Below are positions 12,230-40,787 of a stretch of 53,464 nt of DNA, piece by piece (within the stretch, counting starts at the first letter, position 1; the number at the start of each line of letters is the position of its first letter). Both the position numbers and the translations under genes were made by a program. Below the pieces are notes generated by a model. The model saw only the letters and a list, made by a program, of their open reading frames with translations, ran no database searches and had not been told where the DNA came from. Location of the stretch: contig NZ_JAGQBE010000013.1 in NCBI RefSeq assembly GCF_024345475.1, forward strand, positions 1-53,464, written 5' to 3'. This DNA comes from Cyanobium sp. T1B-Tous (lineage in GTDB: Bacteria > Cyanobacteriota > Cyanobacteriia > PCC-6307 > Cyanobiaceae).

Positions 12230-13067
12230 GGGCGGAAGTGGGGACCGGGTCCGTTGCGCGCATCGCCTGATTCAAACCGTTGGCCAAGGCCACCCAACCC
12301 TCGGGGGCGATGTCCTGGGGCCGCTGCTGCAAACCCATACCCGCAGCCTCGGTGAGGGAAGCCAGCTCAGCCTCCGGCAGCAACCCCGCCAGGGTGTTGC
12401 GCAGCATCTTGCGACGGGCGGCAAAACAGCGCCTCAACAGTTGCTCCACCGTGCGCGCCACCTGGGGGTCGAGCTGCTGCGACGCCGGCAGCGGATCCAA
12501 CACGATCACTTCGGAGTGGACCTTCGGCGGCGGCTGGAAGCAGCGGGGGGGAACCGGGCAGACCGACCGGCAGTCGGCCAGCAGCTGCATCCGCACGCTC
12601 AGGGCCGAGTAGGCGCTGCTGCCGGGCTGGCAGCGGATGCGTTCCCCCACCTCCCGCTGCACCAGCAGCACCAGTCGCTCGTAGGGCTGGGCTGCGGGCC
12701 GATCCAACCGGCCCACCAGGCGTTCCAGCAAGGGGCCCGTGATGTTGTACGGAATATTGGCGACCACCTTGTTGGCCCCCGGCAGCTCCACCGCCAGCAC
12801 ATCCCCGGAGGTGAGGCTGAAGCGCGGTTGATCGCCAAAGCGACCCTGCAGACCCTCCACCAGATCCCGATCCAGCTCCACCGCCAGGACTGCCGACGCA
12901 GGGGACGCCAAGAGCCGCTCCGTGAGGGCCCCGCGCCCCGGACCGACCTCCAACACCCGGTCGCCGGCATCCAGCTCGGCCGCTGTCACGATCTGGCCCA
13001 GCACCGTTTGATCCACCAACCAGTGCTGGCCGAAGCGCTTGCGGGCGCGGTGGGCAGCAAAACTCAT
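12222..13067 (-). CDS. rsmA: 16S rRNA dimethyladenosine transferase RsmA (KsgA)
   Basis: The 281-aa product opens with [11 protein letters not shown] and has SAM motif I ([16 protein letters not shown], near residue 38) and the catalytic NIPY motif at 104-107. It dimethylates two adjacent adenines in the 3' terminal helix of 16S rRNA late in 30S assembly. The frame is open to 13676, but the ATG at 13067 begins the conserved protein. The longer part lies over the opposite-strand genes. The block rsmA-ispE-DUF3082 appears coupled by overlaps. Confidence 0.96.
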
Positions 13068-13091
13068 GGATGGCGTCGCAGTTCCTCCACC

Positions 13092-13379
13092 TTGCCTGTT
13101 TCCCGGCCCCACCTCCTCCTGCTGGCCCTCTTCGGGGCCGTGGGCCTGCCGTTGCTCAGTGCCCCTGCCCGGGCGGGAAGCGTCACGGCCTCCTCGATCT
13201 GGGACCAGAGCAACGCCCTGGAACGGGCCCGCGAACAGCTGCCGGCGGGAGCCACCGTCACTGCCGAGCGCTGCCAGGAGGTGGAGGTGGGCATCGGCAA
13301 CATCCGCTACCTGTGCACGGTGGAATTCCAACCCGCCAGCGAGACCAGTCCGGCCCCTAGCCCCGCCCCATCCCCCTAA
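13092..13379 (+). CDS. Small secreted protein with two cysteines (paralogue of 23882)
   Basis: From TTG 13092 the product is 95 aa. A signal peptide (LLLLALFGAVGLPLLSAPARA) is followed by a mature part with QSN at 39-41, LPAG, Cys61, then YLC with Cys75, and a Pro/Ser tail. The pattern QSN..A..LP.G..T...C.E...Y.C.V recurs in the protein at 23882, so the two are paralogues. Function is unknown; the two Cys may form a disulfide after export. The start is uncertain: no ATG exists, and GTG 13050 would overlap rsmA, which begins 24 bases away on the other strand. Confidence 0.65.
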   Translation: MPVSRPHLLLLALFGAVGLPLLSAPARAGSVTASSIWDQSNALERAREQLPAGATVTAERCQEVEVGIGNIRYLCTVEFQPASETSPAPSPAPSP

Positions 13380-19040: not shown

Positions 19041-19388
19041 TCAGGCGAGCTCCTGCAGGGCGGCCTCGATCATGGCGGCCGTCACCGCAATGGTTTCCAG
19101 TTCGTCGGCATTGTCGAGGTAGGCCTCGAAGGAGGCATAGCGCCGCAGATGGGGCTGGGCCGCCGGCTCGGCACAGGCCTCGCTCCAGCAGATCCCATCG
19201 GATTGCTCGGATTGCACGGCGCGGAAAGCCGTCAGGGCTTCCTCGAGATCGCCACCATCGCCGATGGCCTCACCGTGCCAGAACGCCTCGAAAAACACCA
19301 TGGACCGGAACGGGGGCATGCCAGCTGCAAGCAGCGTATCGAGCTCTCCGGCAGGAGGAGTAGAAACAAGGGAATCAGGTTCTTCCAT
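19041..19388 (-). CDS. Hypothetical acidic protein (115 aa)
   Basis: No family is recognised. The protein is acidic and soluble, with a conserved-looking centre (PFRSMVFFEAFWHGEAIGDGGDLEEALTAF) and an alpha-helical C-terminus. The ATG is supported by an AGGGGAG ribosome site about nine bases upstream on the minus strand. This start shares the CCATGG at 19385-19390 with the divergent ICMT-like gene. It converges with umuC. Confidence 0.6.
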   Translation of the reverse strand: MEEPDSLVSTPPAGELDTLLAAGMPPFRSMVFFEAFWHGEAIGDGGDLEEALTAFRAVQSEQSDGICWSEACAEPAAQPHLRRYASFEAYLDNADELETIAVTAAMIEAALQELA

Positions 19389-20019
19389 GGGTCAAAACTC
19401 CCCTGCAGCAGGCAAAACCTGGTGGGAACGGCAGCGCACCGGACTGTCCAAAGTGGTGGCCGTGCTGATGTTCTCGGTGGTAGCCCTCACCCAGAGCCGC
19501 TGGGAACTGCAGCACGAGGACGTGGCCACCTTCCTCTACAGCGCAGGATTGGCCCTGGCTGCCATCGGAGCGGCGGGGCGGATCTGGTGCTCGTTCTTCA
19601 TCTCCGGCCGCAAGGACGGCCAGCTGGTGACGGAGGGTCCGTACTCGATCAGTCGCAATCCCCTCTACGTCTTCAGTGGCATCGGAATGCTGGGGGTTGG
19701 ACTCACCACGGAAACCCTCACCTACCCGCTGCTGTTTCTGTTGATCTTTGGCCTGTATTACCCCGGGATCATGGGCCGCGAGGAGCGGCGACTCGAAGAG
19801 CTGTTCGGTGACGCCTACCGCACCTACCGGCAGCGCGTACCGCGCTTCTGGCCCCAGCCTCGGCTCTATCGCGAACCAGCCAGCTGGAGCAGCAACCCGC
19901 GCCTGTTCCGTCGCCACATCCTGAGCGACATCTGGTTTGTGTGGATTGCCGCGATCATCGAGTTGGTGGAGGGATTCCGCAACATGGGTTGGCTCCCCCA
20001 CCTGGTGCAGCTCTGGTGA
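19387..20019 (+). CDS. Isoprenylcysteine carboxyl methyltransferase-like membrane protein
   Basis: The product of about 210 aa has several membrane helices and the ICMT/PEMT core: LVTEGPYSISRNPLYVFSGIG, then YYPGIMGREERRLEELFGDAYRTYRQRVPRFWP. This family binds SAM at the membrane face and methylates lipid-linked or small substrates; the bacterial substrate is unknown. ATG 19387 is used, but its codon overlaps the start of the opposite gene and the ribosome site is weak. A slightly later start near the first helix is possible. Confidence 0.83.
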   Translation: MGQNSPAAGKTWWERQRTGLSKVVAVLMFSVVALTQSRWELQHEDVATFLYSAGLALAAIGAAGRIWCSFFISGRKDGQLVTEGPYSISRNPLYVFSGIGMLGVGLTTETLTYPLLFLLIFGLYYPGIMGREERRLEELFGDAYRTYRQRVPRFWPQPRLYREPASWSSNPRLFRRHILSDIWFVWIAAIIELVEGFRNMGWLPHLVQLW

Positions 20020-20038
20020 GCTCACCAGCGGGCGTCAC

Positions 20039-20323
20039 TCACCACCAGTCATCCCAGAAGGGGCCGCCGAAACCGTCATCAAACGCAGGCTCAACGGTCC
20101 AGGTGGGGGGTGGTCCACCAGCCATCGGCGGTTTGGGGGGGCCGGAGAGCGTTTCCGCGTTGATGCCGGGAATCGGCAGGGGCTCACACGGGCACAGGCA
20201 GGCACCATCGGGGCCCATCTGGCCGACGGTGGGCTCGGCACAGCCGCAGGAACATCCCTGGGCCAAGCCAGCGGGGGGAGCCATCAGGCAGAGCAGGGCC
20301 AGGCAAGGGGCGAAACCACCCAT
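20039..20323 (-). CDS. Small secreted protein with twin CxCxC motifs
   Basis: The 94-aa product starts MGGFAPCLALLCLMAPP, a signal peptide with probable cleavage near GLA/QG at about residue 21. The mature N-terminus carries two CxCxC clusters (Cys24/26/28 and Cys42/44/46) with 13 residues between them. A Pro/Gly-rich stretch and the aromatic acidic tail FWDDWW follow. Clusters of this kind suggest metal binding or disulfides, but no family is recognised. Met 20347 would add eight residues. It lies downstream of dnaG on the same strand and converges with the ICMT-like gene. Confidence 0.62.
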   Translation of the reverse strand: MGGFAPCLALLCLMAPPAGLAQGCSCGCAEPTVGQMGPDGACLCPCEPLPIPGINAETLSGPPKPPMAGGPPPTWTVEPAFDDGFGGPFWDDWW

Positions 20324-20401
20324 GGGGTGAACGGAGGGCAGGGGCATCGAATCGAACTGGGTGGGAGGGCAACAGGCTGAAACGGGAAGCGGGCGCTGCG
20401 C

Positions 20402-22480
20402 TCAGGCGGCCGGTTGGGCCATCACCTCCCCATAGCCGGCACAGCGCTGGGAATCGAGGTGCTCCAGGTGCTTGCGCTCGTTGTAGTAGAGCTCCTGAAA
20501 GCGCAGGGCATCGCCATTGAGCTCGGCGAAGAGGGCCTCGATCCGCGCTTCCATGTCGCTCACCGGAGCCAGGCCTGAGGGCGTGGCCCGGGCCTCCTGC
20601 CGTTCCTCATCCAGCAGCCGGGCGATGCAGCGCTCCAGGGTTTCGAGCCGTTGACTGCCCCAGGCATCCAGCAGGTGCCGGCAGCGCTTGACACTCTTCT
20701 GCCGTTCCAGGGCGGCCGTGGCGCCGCGCAACTGGAGCAGGGGCTGGCTGAGGGCCATCCGCTGCAGTTCACTCGGCTCCAGCAGGGGGGTCAGCCGGCC
20801 GAGCAGGGCGCTCTGCTCCACCACCAGCAGGTCGGCCAACAACCGGGGCAGGTCAAGATCCGCCAGCTCGAGGCCAGGGTCGCTGCCCCGGTTGATCGCC
20901 TCCAGCCGACCAACGCCCAGGTTGTCCTCCTCCAGGGAACTGATCGAGGCCCAGAGCAGGCGATGGTGCTGCAGGGCGAAGTCATCCAGTTCCCGCTGGC
21001 GCAGCTCCACCCGGATCGCGGTGCGATGGGTGGGGCAATGGAGGTAGAGCCGCAGTAACTCCGCCTCAGCCCGCTCCCGCAGGCCCGCCTCGCCGGGCTG
21101 CTCCCACTTCTGGGAGCGCCCATGCCAACGCTGGCCCTTCACCTGCTGGCGCAGGTCATCTTCGAGCTGGATCGCCAGCCGGGCCTGGCCACCGCTCAGC
21201 CGTTCGGCCACCCGCTGGAGGTAGTGGCTGCGCACGGCGCTCTGGGGCAGCTTGCCGAGCAGGGACACCAGGGCCGTCACCGCCTGCTGGAACTGGTCGG
21301 CTCGGGCCAGATCGCGCCCTTCGAGCACCTGCTCCATCTGCCAATCGAGCCAGAGGGGGGCCTGATCAAGCAGGGAGCGGTACTCACCGGCACCGTGCTG
21401 CTGCAGGAACTCGTCGGGGTCCTTACCGGCCGGCAGGTGCAGCACCCGCAGTTCGAGCTGGCCCTGCAGGGCCAGCTGCTCCACCTCACCGATGGCGCGC
21501 TGGGCGGCGCGCACCCCGGCGCCATCGCTGTCGAAGTTGAGGATCAGCCGCCGGCTCTCGCAGCAGCGGCAGAGCTGGGTGATCTGCTGGCTGCTGAGTG
21601 CCGTGCCCAGGGCCGCCACCGCATTGGTGATGCCCGCGGCATGGAGGGCGATCACGTCGAAATAGCCCTCCACCACCACAGCCCGGTCGTCCTTGCGGAT
21701 GGCCGTGCTGGCCTTGTCGAGCCCGAACAGGTGTTTGCCCTTCTCAAACACCTCCGTCTCCGGCGAGTTGAGATATTTGGGCTCGCCGCCATCGAGGCTG
21801 CGGCCGCCGAAGCCGATCACCCGGCCCTGGCGATCCTTAATGGGCACCATCACCCGAGCGCGGAAGCGGTCGTAGAAGCCGTCACCGCCCTTGCGGGGCA
21901 CCACCAGGCCGGCCGCCTCCAACAGCTCCGGCCCCAGCCCCTCCACCTGCTGCAGGTGGGAGAGCAGGCCATCCCAGCGATCGGGGGCAAAGCCGAGCTC
22001 AAAGGCCTCGAGGGTGGCCTCACTCAGGCCGCGGCTGTCGCGCAGGTAGGCCAGGGCTGCGGCTCCCTCGGCGGAGCGGAGCTGGCTGCGAAACCAGCCC
22101 GCCGCCAGGGTGAGCACGCGGTGCAGCTGCTCGCGGCGGGAAAGCTGTTTGCGCAGCCGTTCCTGCTGGGGGCCGTCGAGGGTTTCGATCGGCAGCTGGT
22201 ATTTGCGCGCGAGCTCCAGCACCACATCGCTGAAGCTCTGGCGCTGGTGCTCCATCAGGAACTTGATGGCATTGCCCCCCGCCCCGCAGGAGAAGCAGTA
22301 GTAGAACTGCTTGGCCGGGGACACCGTCATCGACGGTGACGTGTCGTCGTGGAAGGGACAGATGCCGACGTACTCCCGACCCTTTTTCTTGAGCACCACG
22401 TGCTCGCCCACCACATCGACGATGTCGGCGCGCTCCTTGACGGCCTCGATCGTGCGGGGGTGGAGACGCGGCAGGCTCAA
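20402..22480 (-). CDS. dnaG: DNA primase
   Basis: The 692-aa product has the N-terminal CHC2 zinc finger (Cys41, His44, Cys62, Cys65), a catalytic core and a Toprim domain with VVVEGYFDVIALHAAG and later LNFDSDGAG. A C-terminal DnaB-binding region follows. It makes RNA primers at the replication fork. The start (MSLPRLHPRTIEAVKERADIV) is standard for the family. The gene is divergent from the EamA transporter, with only 17 bases between the proposed start codons. Confidence 0.96.
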   Translation of the reverse strand: MSLPRLHPRTIEAVKERADIVDVVGEHVVLKKKGREYVGICPFHDDTSPSMTVSPAKQFYYCFSCGAGGNAIKFLMEHQRQSFSDVVLELARKYQLPIETLDGPQQERLRKQLSRREQLHRVLTLAAGWFRSQLRSAEGAAALAYLRDSRGLSEATLEAFELGFAPDRWDGLLSHLQQVEGLGPELLEAAGLVVPRKGGDGFYDRFRARVMVPIKDRQGRVIGFGGRSLDGGEPKYLNSPETEVFEKGKHLFGLDKASTAIRKDDRAVVVEGYFDVIALHAAGITNAVAALGTALSSQQITQLCRCCESRRLILNFDSDGAGVRAAQRAIGEVEQLALQGQLELRVLHLPAGKDPDEFLQQHGAGEYRSLLDQAPLWLDWQMEQVLEGRDLARADQFQQAVTALVSLLGKLPQSAVRSHYLQRVAERLSGGQARLAIQLEDDLRQQVKGQRWHGRSQKWEQPGEAGLRERAEAELLRLYLHCPTHRTAIRVELRQRELDDFALQHHRLLWASISSLEEDNLGVGRLEAINRGSDPGLELADLDLPRLLADLLVVEQSALLGRLTPLLEPSELQRMALSQPLLQLRGATAALERQKSVKRCRHLLDAWGSQRLETLERCIARLLDEERQEARATPSGLAPVSDMEARIEALFAELNGDALRFQELYYNERKHLEHLDSQRCAGYGEVMAQPAA

Positions 22481-23794: not shown

Positions 23795-23881
23795 GGCCTG
23801 AGTCTTGCGGTTCACCGCCAACCTGGCCAGCCCTGGGCTTCCGGCCTAGAACGCAAGCAACGACCGTTCTGGAGCGATCCC

Positions 23882-24124
23882 ATGCGCCATGCCGTTCTGC
23901 TGCCAGCGCTGTTGGCGGCGATGTCAGGGCTCCTAGCCCTGCCCTGCCGGGCAGGCGGCGCCATCGGGCAATCGAACGTGAGCCAGGCGGAAGCGATCCG
24001 CAGTGCCACGGTGGGCATGCTGCCCGGAGAGGTGATCACCTCCAGCAACTGCACCGAAAACATGGTGGATGGCATCACGCTGTACAGCTGCGAGGTGCAG
24101 TGGGGAGCACCACCGGCCCCCTGA
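23882..24124 (+). CDS. Small secreted protein with two cysteines (paralogue of 13092)
   Basis: The 80-aa product starts MRHAVLLPALLAAMSGLLAL, a clear signal peptide with cleavage near CRAGG. The mature part has QSN at 30-32, MLPGE, Cys57 and YSC with Cys70, ending WGAPPAP. The pattern is shared with the protein at 13092, with the Cys pair 12 rather than 13 residues apart. A GGAG ribosome site lies seven bases before the ATG and a TAGAAC at 23847 is a possible -10. Function is unknown; a periplasmic or lumenal disulfide protein is a reasonable inference. Confidence 0.75.
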   Translation: MRHAVLLPALLAAMSGLLALPCRAGGAIGQSNVSQAEAIRSATVGMLPGEVITSSNCTENMVDGITLYSCEVQWGAPPAP

Positions 24125-40713: not shown

Positions 40714-40787
40714 CGGGGCGTAGCGCAGCTTGGTAGCGCACCACTTTGGGGTAGTGGGGGTCGCAGGTTCAAATCCTGTCGCTCCGA
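40714..40787 (+). tRNA. tRNA-Pro (anticodon GGG)
   Basis: The 74-nt sequence folds as a cloverleaf. The acceptor CGGGGCG pairs with CGCTCCG (one G-T), with discriminator A. The anticodon stem CCACT/AGTGG has loop TTGGGGT, giving GGG at 34-36. The T loop GGTTCAAATCC is standard. No CCA is encoded. A terminator follows at 40822. Confidence 0.96.

Follow-up and report, generated by a model that had tools for sequence, protein, structure and literature searches.

What might a small protein that probably leaves the cytoplasm do with six cysteines arranged as two symmetric CxCxC clusters? The question is raised by a minus-strand gene of Cyanobium sp. T1B-Tous, situated in a stretch of 53,464 nucleotides that is referred to below as the window. 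The first-pass annotation described a product of 20039–20323 with the clusters 13 residues apart and FWDDWW at its end, and it was accurate on both counts: in the 94-residue frame that starts at ATG 20323, CSCGC and CLCPC are separated by exactly 13 residues, and the C-terminus reads FWDDWW. The in-frame ATG at 20347 is nevertheless the likelier start, because the closest relative has MPWPSVLR there, including a basic residue of the sort usual near the N-terminus of signal peptides. The twin clusters are not an accident of composition. Among the 514 stop-to-stop frames of at least 60 residues in the window, five contain CxCxC and this frame alone contains two; when the mature protein was shuffled 200,000 times, two separate copies arose in 4 cases, and 30 base shuffles of the window produced no frame with two copies spaced 5–25 residues apart. 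The three antisense frames of the gene are each interrupted by stops in many members of the family, and no promoter-like or terminator-like sites were found in 19900–20700. The layout of the locus is given in Table 1.

Table 1. The six-Cys gene, its predicted parts, and its flanking genes, in window coordinates.
Feature	Position	Strand	Basis
Gene for six-Cys exported protein	20039–20347	−	102 residues from ATG 20347; stop at 20039–20041
Predicted signal peptide MPLPSVHPMGGFAPCLALLCLMAPPAGLA	20261–20347	−	Hydropathy; A/Q junction in homologues
First cluster, CSCGC	20240–20254	−	Spacing exact in 24 of 25 members
13-residue loop AEPTVGQMGPDGA, with conserved P and two G	20201–20239	−	Alignment; AlphaFold2
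Second cluster, CLCPC	20186–20200	−	Spacing exact in 24 of 25 members
Pro/Gly-rich linker, invariant L-x-G-P-x-x-P	20087–20185	−	Alignment of members
Acidic aromatic tail AFDDGFGGPFWDDWW, ending FWDDWW	20042–20086	−	Frame translation; alignment of members
dnaG, upstream neighbor on the same strand	20402–22480	−	Pfam DNAG_N, Toprim, DnaB_bind
PEMT/ICMT-type membrane methyltransferase, convergent neighbor	19264–20019 (longest frame)	+	PF04191, E 2.6e-12

The six-Cys proteins constitute a real, lineage-limited, and undescribed family, although the small, exported, Cys-rich kind to which they belong is a familiar one. The homologue search that the first-pass annotation proposed does find relatives, and these carry the Cys clusters. 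Ten strong matches, all in the same genus (E 6.6e-22 or better), emerged from 60 related genomes; 36 of these genomes gave some match at E up to 10, and the other 26, at E 0.0036 or worse, were set aside as chance. When 400 genomes of the taxonomic family were searched with a profile, members appeared in 25 (E 5.4e-9 or better), distributed over four genera, designated g1 (10 of 16 genomes), g6 (8 of 42), g54 (3 of 13), and g68 (4 of 4). Partial matches in the remaining 42 of 67 matching genomes (E 2.8e-4 to 0.48) were attributed to chance; the best of them, in genome G099, fell below E 0.001 in the 400-genome search and not in the search of genus g6. A scan of named genomes located four loci, in Cyanobium usitatum Tous, Synechococcus sp. 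CS-1330, Cyanobium sp. FACHB-13342, and Synechococcus sp. 8F6. Farther afield, strong matches were confined to four g1 genomes in a sample of the class (388 genomes) and two g1 genomes in a sample of the phylum (292 genomes); neither sample held a convincing relative from outside the taxonomic family, three of the seven class matches being partial, at E 0.004–0.006, and set aside as chance. No copies were found in collections of phages, plasmids, and viral contigs. The earlier impression that the protein resembles no family is borne out: Pfam returned nothing for three of the proteins at E up to 10 or for 13 aligned members, NCBIfam and PDB searched by sequence gave no match, and a Foldseek search of PDB with the AlphaFold2 model of the full mature protein or of its core was equally empty. 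One weak PHROGs match, in 1 of 13 members at E 0.22, was taken as chance. Literature searches on CXCXC in cyanobacteria or the periplasm, and on Cys-rich signal-peptide proteins of Cyanobium, yielded no description of the protein.

Within this family, the cysteines are fixed. Of the 25 members, 24 match QxCxCxCxxPxxGx5GxCxCxC exactly, and in the remaining one the codon for the second Cys, TGN, is unreadable. Sixteen columns are invariant across 23 aligned members: the Q, the six Cys, the P and two G of the loop, the L, G, P, and P of the linker, and two W. The first-pass remark that there is little structure beyond the clusters was half right, but the linker motif LxGPxxP and one Trp of the tail are invariant as well in the 23 of 25 members aligned. 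Codon analysis covered the same number, leaving out L046 (frame-length limit) and L059 (unreadable codons), both of which were checked afterwards for the Cys pattern. dN/dS ranged from 0.05 to 0.36 in 13 of 15 pairs; of the other two, one had no non-synonymous change and one was saturated. The gene is under purifying selection.

Where the protein acts is suggested by its N-terminus. The hydrophobic stretch, whose 11-residue hydropathy mean reaches 2.45, ends in PPAGLA, and cleavage is predicted immediately before the invariant Q. Two features of a Sec signal are present, namely the hydrophobic stretch in the window protein and, in homologues, a small residue at the cleavage site (the A/Q junction); the basic n-region is absent from the N-terminus of the window protein. 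Ahead of the first Cys, members have AQ or SQ followed by G, P, A, T, D, or E, and a lipobox, L-[AS]-[GA]-C, was not found there in any member. Nor does the window protein carry the twin Arg of Tat substrates in this region. Export by Sec is favored on these grounds, and the secretion claimed by the first-pass annotation agrees with both the hydrophobic N-terminus and the A/Q junction. Three g68 members (L057–L059) have a very short hydrophobic N-terminus, about 14 residues from Met; in these same members, GGW units are repeated in the tail. Counted from the Q, the mature window protein comprises 73 residues with a pI of 4.05 and a net charge of −8; Cys occurs in it six times and Trp four times, and His is absent. 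It reads QG-CSCGC-AEPTVGQMGPDGA-CLCPC, followed by the Pro/Gly-rich linker and the tail AFDDGFGGPFWDDWW.

Structure prediction offers a partial view of how the clusters might be arranged. AlphaFold2, run with five sequences in each case, modeled the full mature protein poorly (pLDDT 55.5, pTM 0.26), the linker lying mostly under pLDDT 50, while a 32-residue core reached a mean pLDDT of 77.8 (pTM 0.35). The core model features strands at 3–6 and 13–16 with short bridges at 21–22 and 28; in the loop, VGQM is modeled as a strand and GPDG as a turn, and with moderate confidence a possible third strand bearing an invariant Gly is placed between the two Cys strands. Neither model contains a helix bundle. 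In sequence layout the protein recalls the cystine ladder of theta-defensin, whose Cys order is likewise CxCxC-CxCxC. Three parallel disulfides link two short antiparallel strands in that peptide (PMC10096437). The resemblance is one of layout only, as theta-defensin is a primate peptide of 18 residues, head-to-tail cyclic and cationic, whereas the six-Cys protein is linear and acidic and has a 13-residue loop. When the protein was checked against such a ladder, its sequence layout fitted, and the core model suggested, at moderate confidence, the additional strand in between. Should the modeled strands form a simple meander, the Cys strands would flank the middle strand, which speaks against a cross-strand disulfide ladder. 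No solved structure in PDB matched the protein by sequence or either model by fold. Conceivably, the twin CxCxC motif defines a novel mini-fold of three strands, with the invariant-Gly strand in the middle and the Cys strands on either side holding a cystine ladder that is linear or, alternatively, a compact cluster of Cu(I)/Zn and thiolates; exported to the envelope, it would present the Trp-rich acidic tail. As a complete proposal, this is rather doubtful.

What, then, do the cysteines do? The explanation favored here, tentatively and at a little short of an even chance, is that the protein is a Sec-exported, disulfide-braced binding or adaptor peptide that presents its acidic Trp-rich tail, and not a thiol enzyme. 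Sec would deliver it to the periplasm, the thylakoid lumen, or the cell surface; after signal cleavage, the VKOR–thioredoxin system would oxidize the six Cys to three disulfides; these would brace a mini β-domain of about 25 residues, from which the flexible linker would present the acidic, Trp-rich tail for binding a partner in the envelope. Two VKOR domains in the genome exceed the Pfam cut-off, and after each of them a thioredoxin-like stretch with CPHC can be recognized by eye; in cyanobacteria, which are without DsbA/DsbB, disulfide formation is ascribed to VKOR fusions (PMC3842002). Because two such fusions coincide with an exported protein whose Cys set is even and invariant, disulfides are the likelier state. 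The suggestion of the first-pass annotation that the six Cys act as thiols, in metal binding or redox chemistry, found no support, and the two fusions tilt the balance toward disulfides. Several points temper the favored explanation: metal clusters, too, would be compatible with six Cys spaced in CxC steps; the core model, built on five sequences, has a pTM of 0.35 and, read as a meander, is a bad fit for a disulfide ladder; the full model is poor, and neither has a PDB counterpart; and no conserved neighbor gene in the g1, g54, g6, and g68 loci lends support to a partner. In either event, picocyanobacteria gain a small, strictly conserved family of Cys-rich exported proteins. Little is known of what the VKOR system acts on in these organisms, and if the six Cys do form disulfides, the protein would be a clean native substrate.

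The strongest competitor is an exported metallothionein-like protein, which would act as a metal buffer of the periplasm or lumen, its six thiolates binding a small cluster of Cu(I) or Zn. This is unlikely, yet it draws on several observations: lists of metallothionein motifs include CXC and CXCXC (PMC7216689), exported Cys-rich copper stores are known, as exemplified by Csp1 (PMC7558416), and the invariant-Gly strand between the Cys strands of the AlphaFold2 core could leave room for a cluster. Moreover, no match to Metallothio_Pro was found in the genome, while the control, Synechococcus elongatus, does match; should the six Cys bind metal, a genome with no classical metallothionein match would have a metallothionein-like protein that is exported. 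Prokaryotic metallothioneins of the SmtA type (PF02069) are similarly small and Cys-rich, with CxC steps, and occur in Synechococcus-type cyanobacteria. Unlike them, the six-Cys protein carries a signal for export and has its six Cys arranged as two symmetric clusters, and it does not match the PF02069 profile (three proteins at E up to 10; 13 aligned members). Csp1 shares export and Cys richness with it, but is a Tat-exported four-helix bundle with many Cys (PMC7558416), as opposed to about 73 mature residues with predicted strands behind a Sec-like signal. Identity with Csp1 is contradicted by the missing twin Arg of the window protein, the absence of a helix bundle in the models, and the lack of a Pfam match, and the difference in export route counts against the metal reading. 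The lack of His in the mature window protein also counts against metal binding, and no metal gene is common to the neighborhoods of the members; the sole hint comes from g68, where three loci carry a TerC-like frame.

That the product is a peptide signal, a bacteriocin, or another ribosomally made product released into the medium is improbable. Small size, export, Cys richness, and the patchy distribution among the four genera would all suit such a role, but the purifying selection is strong and the core has no variable regions, the net charge of the mature protein is strongly negative, no modification, transport, or immunity genes were recognized by eye in six loci, and phages and plasmids hold no copies. 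Very improbable is a role in thiol redox chemistry or a disulfide relay, with the CxCxC clusters passing back and forth between the thiol and disulfide states: the six Cys are conserved and CxC pairs can form vicinal-type disulfides, but there is no thioredoxin-like fold, no CxxC, no Pfam match, and no redox neighbor in the loci inspected.

The position beside dnaG, singled out in the first-pass annotation, holds in the window and in genera g1 and g54, where the gene lies behind dnaG, and fails in g6 and g68. Ten loci of the latter two genera (7–13.5 kb) contain no homologue of dnaG, the methyltransferase, umuC, or the 19041–19388 frame, and the flanking genes differ between g6 and g68. Because g6 and g68 members lie elsewhere, the adjacency says little about function and is best regarded as inherited synteny of two genera. 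The convergent methyltransferase, whose true start is probably near 19388, was not found beside the six-Cys gene in L034, L039, L041, L045, L046, and L047, of which L034 and L041 are one and the same place. In g1 and g54 loci, a 115-residue minus-strand frame without a Pfam match (19041–19388) is kept, with the six-Cys gene on one side and umuC on the other. In L072–L074, all from g68, a frame named by eye as a TerC-like integral membrane protein ends convergently at the six-Cys gene, an arrangement confined to this genus.

Synteny with dnaG also exposes a loss. Six of 16 Cyanobium genomes have no six-Cys match, and one of them, G011 (99% complete), retains behind dnaG (L082) a 40-base remnant of the first Cys cluster that is 85% identical. 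Missing after the remnant is about 0.9 kb, which covers the rest of the six-Cys gene together with the greater part of the convergent methyltransferase; ahead of the remnant, the region for the signal peptide is mostly gone as well. This deletion establishes that the gene is dispensable in at least one lineage, in agreement with its patchy spread. The dnaG loci of the other five non-member genomes show no twin CxCxC, a result that is weak for G003, in which dnaG is split over contigs, and for G009, which is incomplete.

Elsewhere in the window, two small plus-strand frames of similar build (12966–13379 and 23876–24124) have a hydrophobic N-terminus ending in ARAG or CRAG, followed by a Cys pair 13–14 residues apart. 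Neither has a Pfam match; they align in short pairwise BLASTP and are possibly distant paralogues. No RNA gene turned up in the window other than a tRNA-Pro (ggg) at 40714–40787 on the plus strand.
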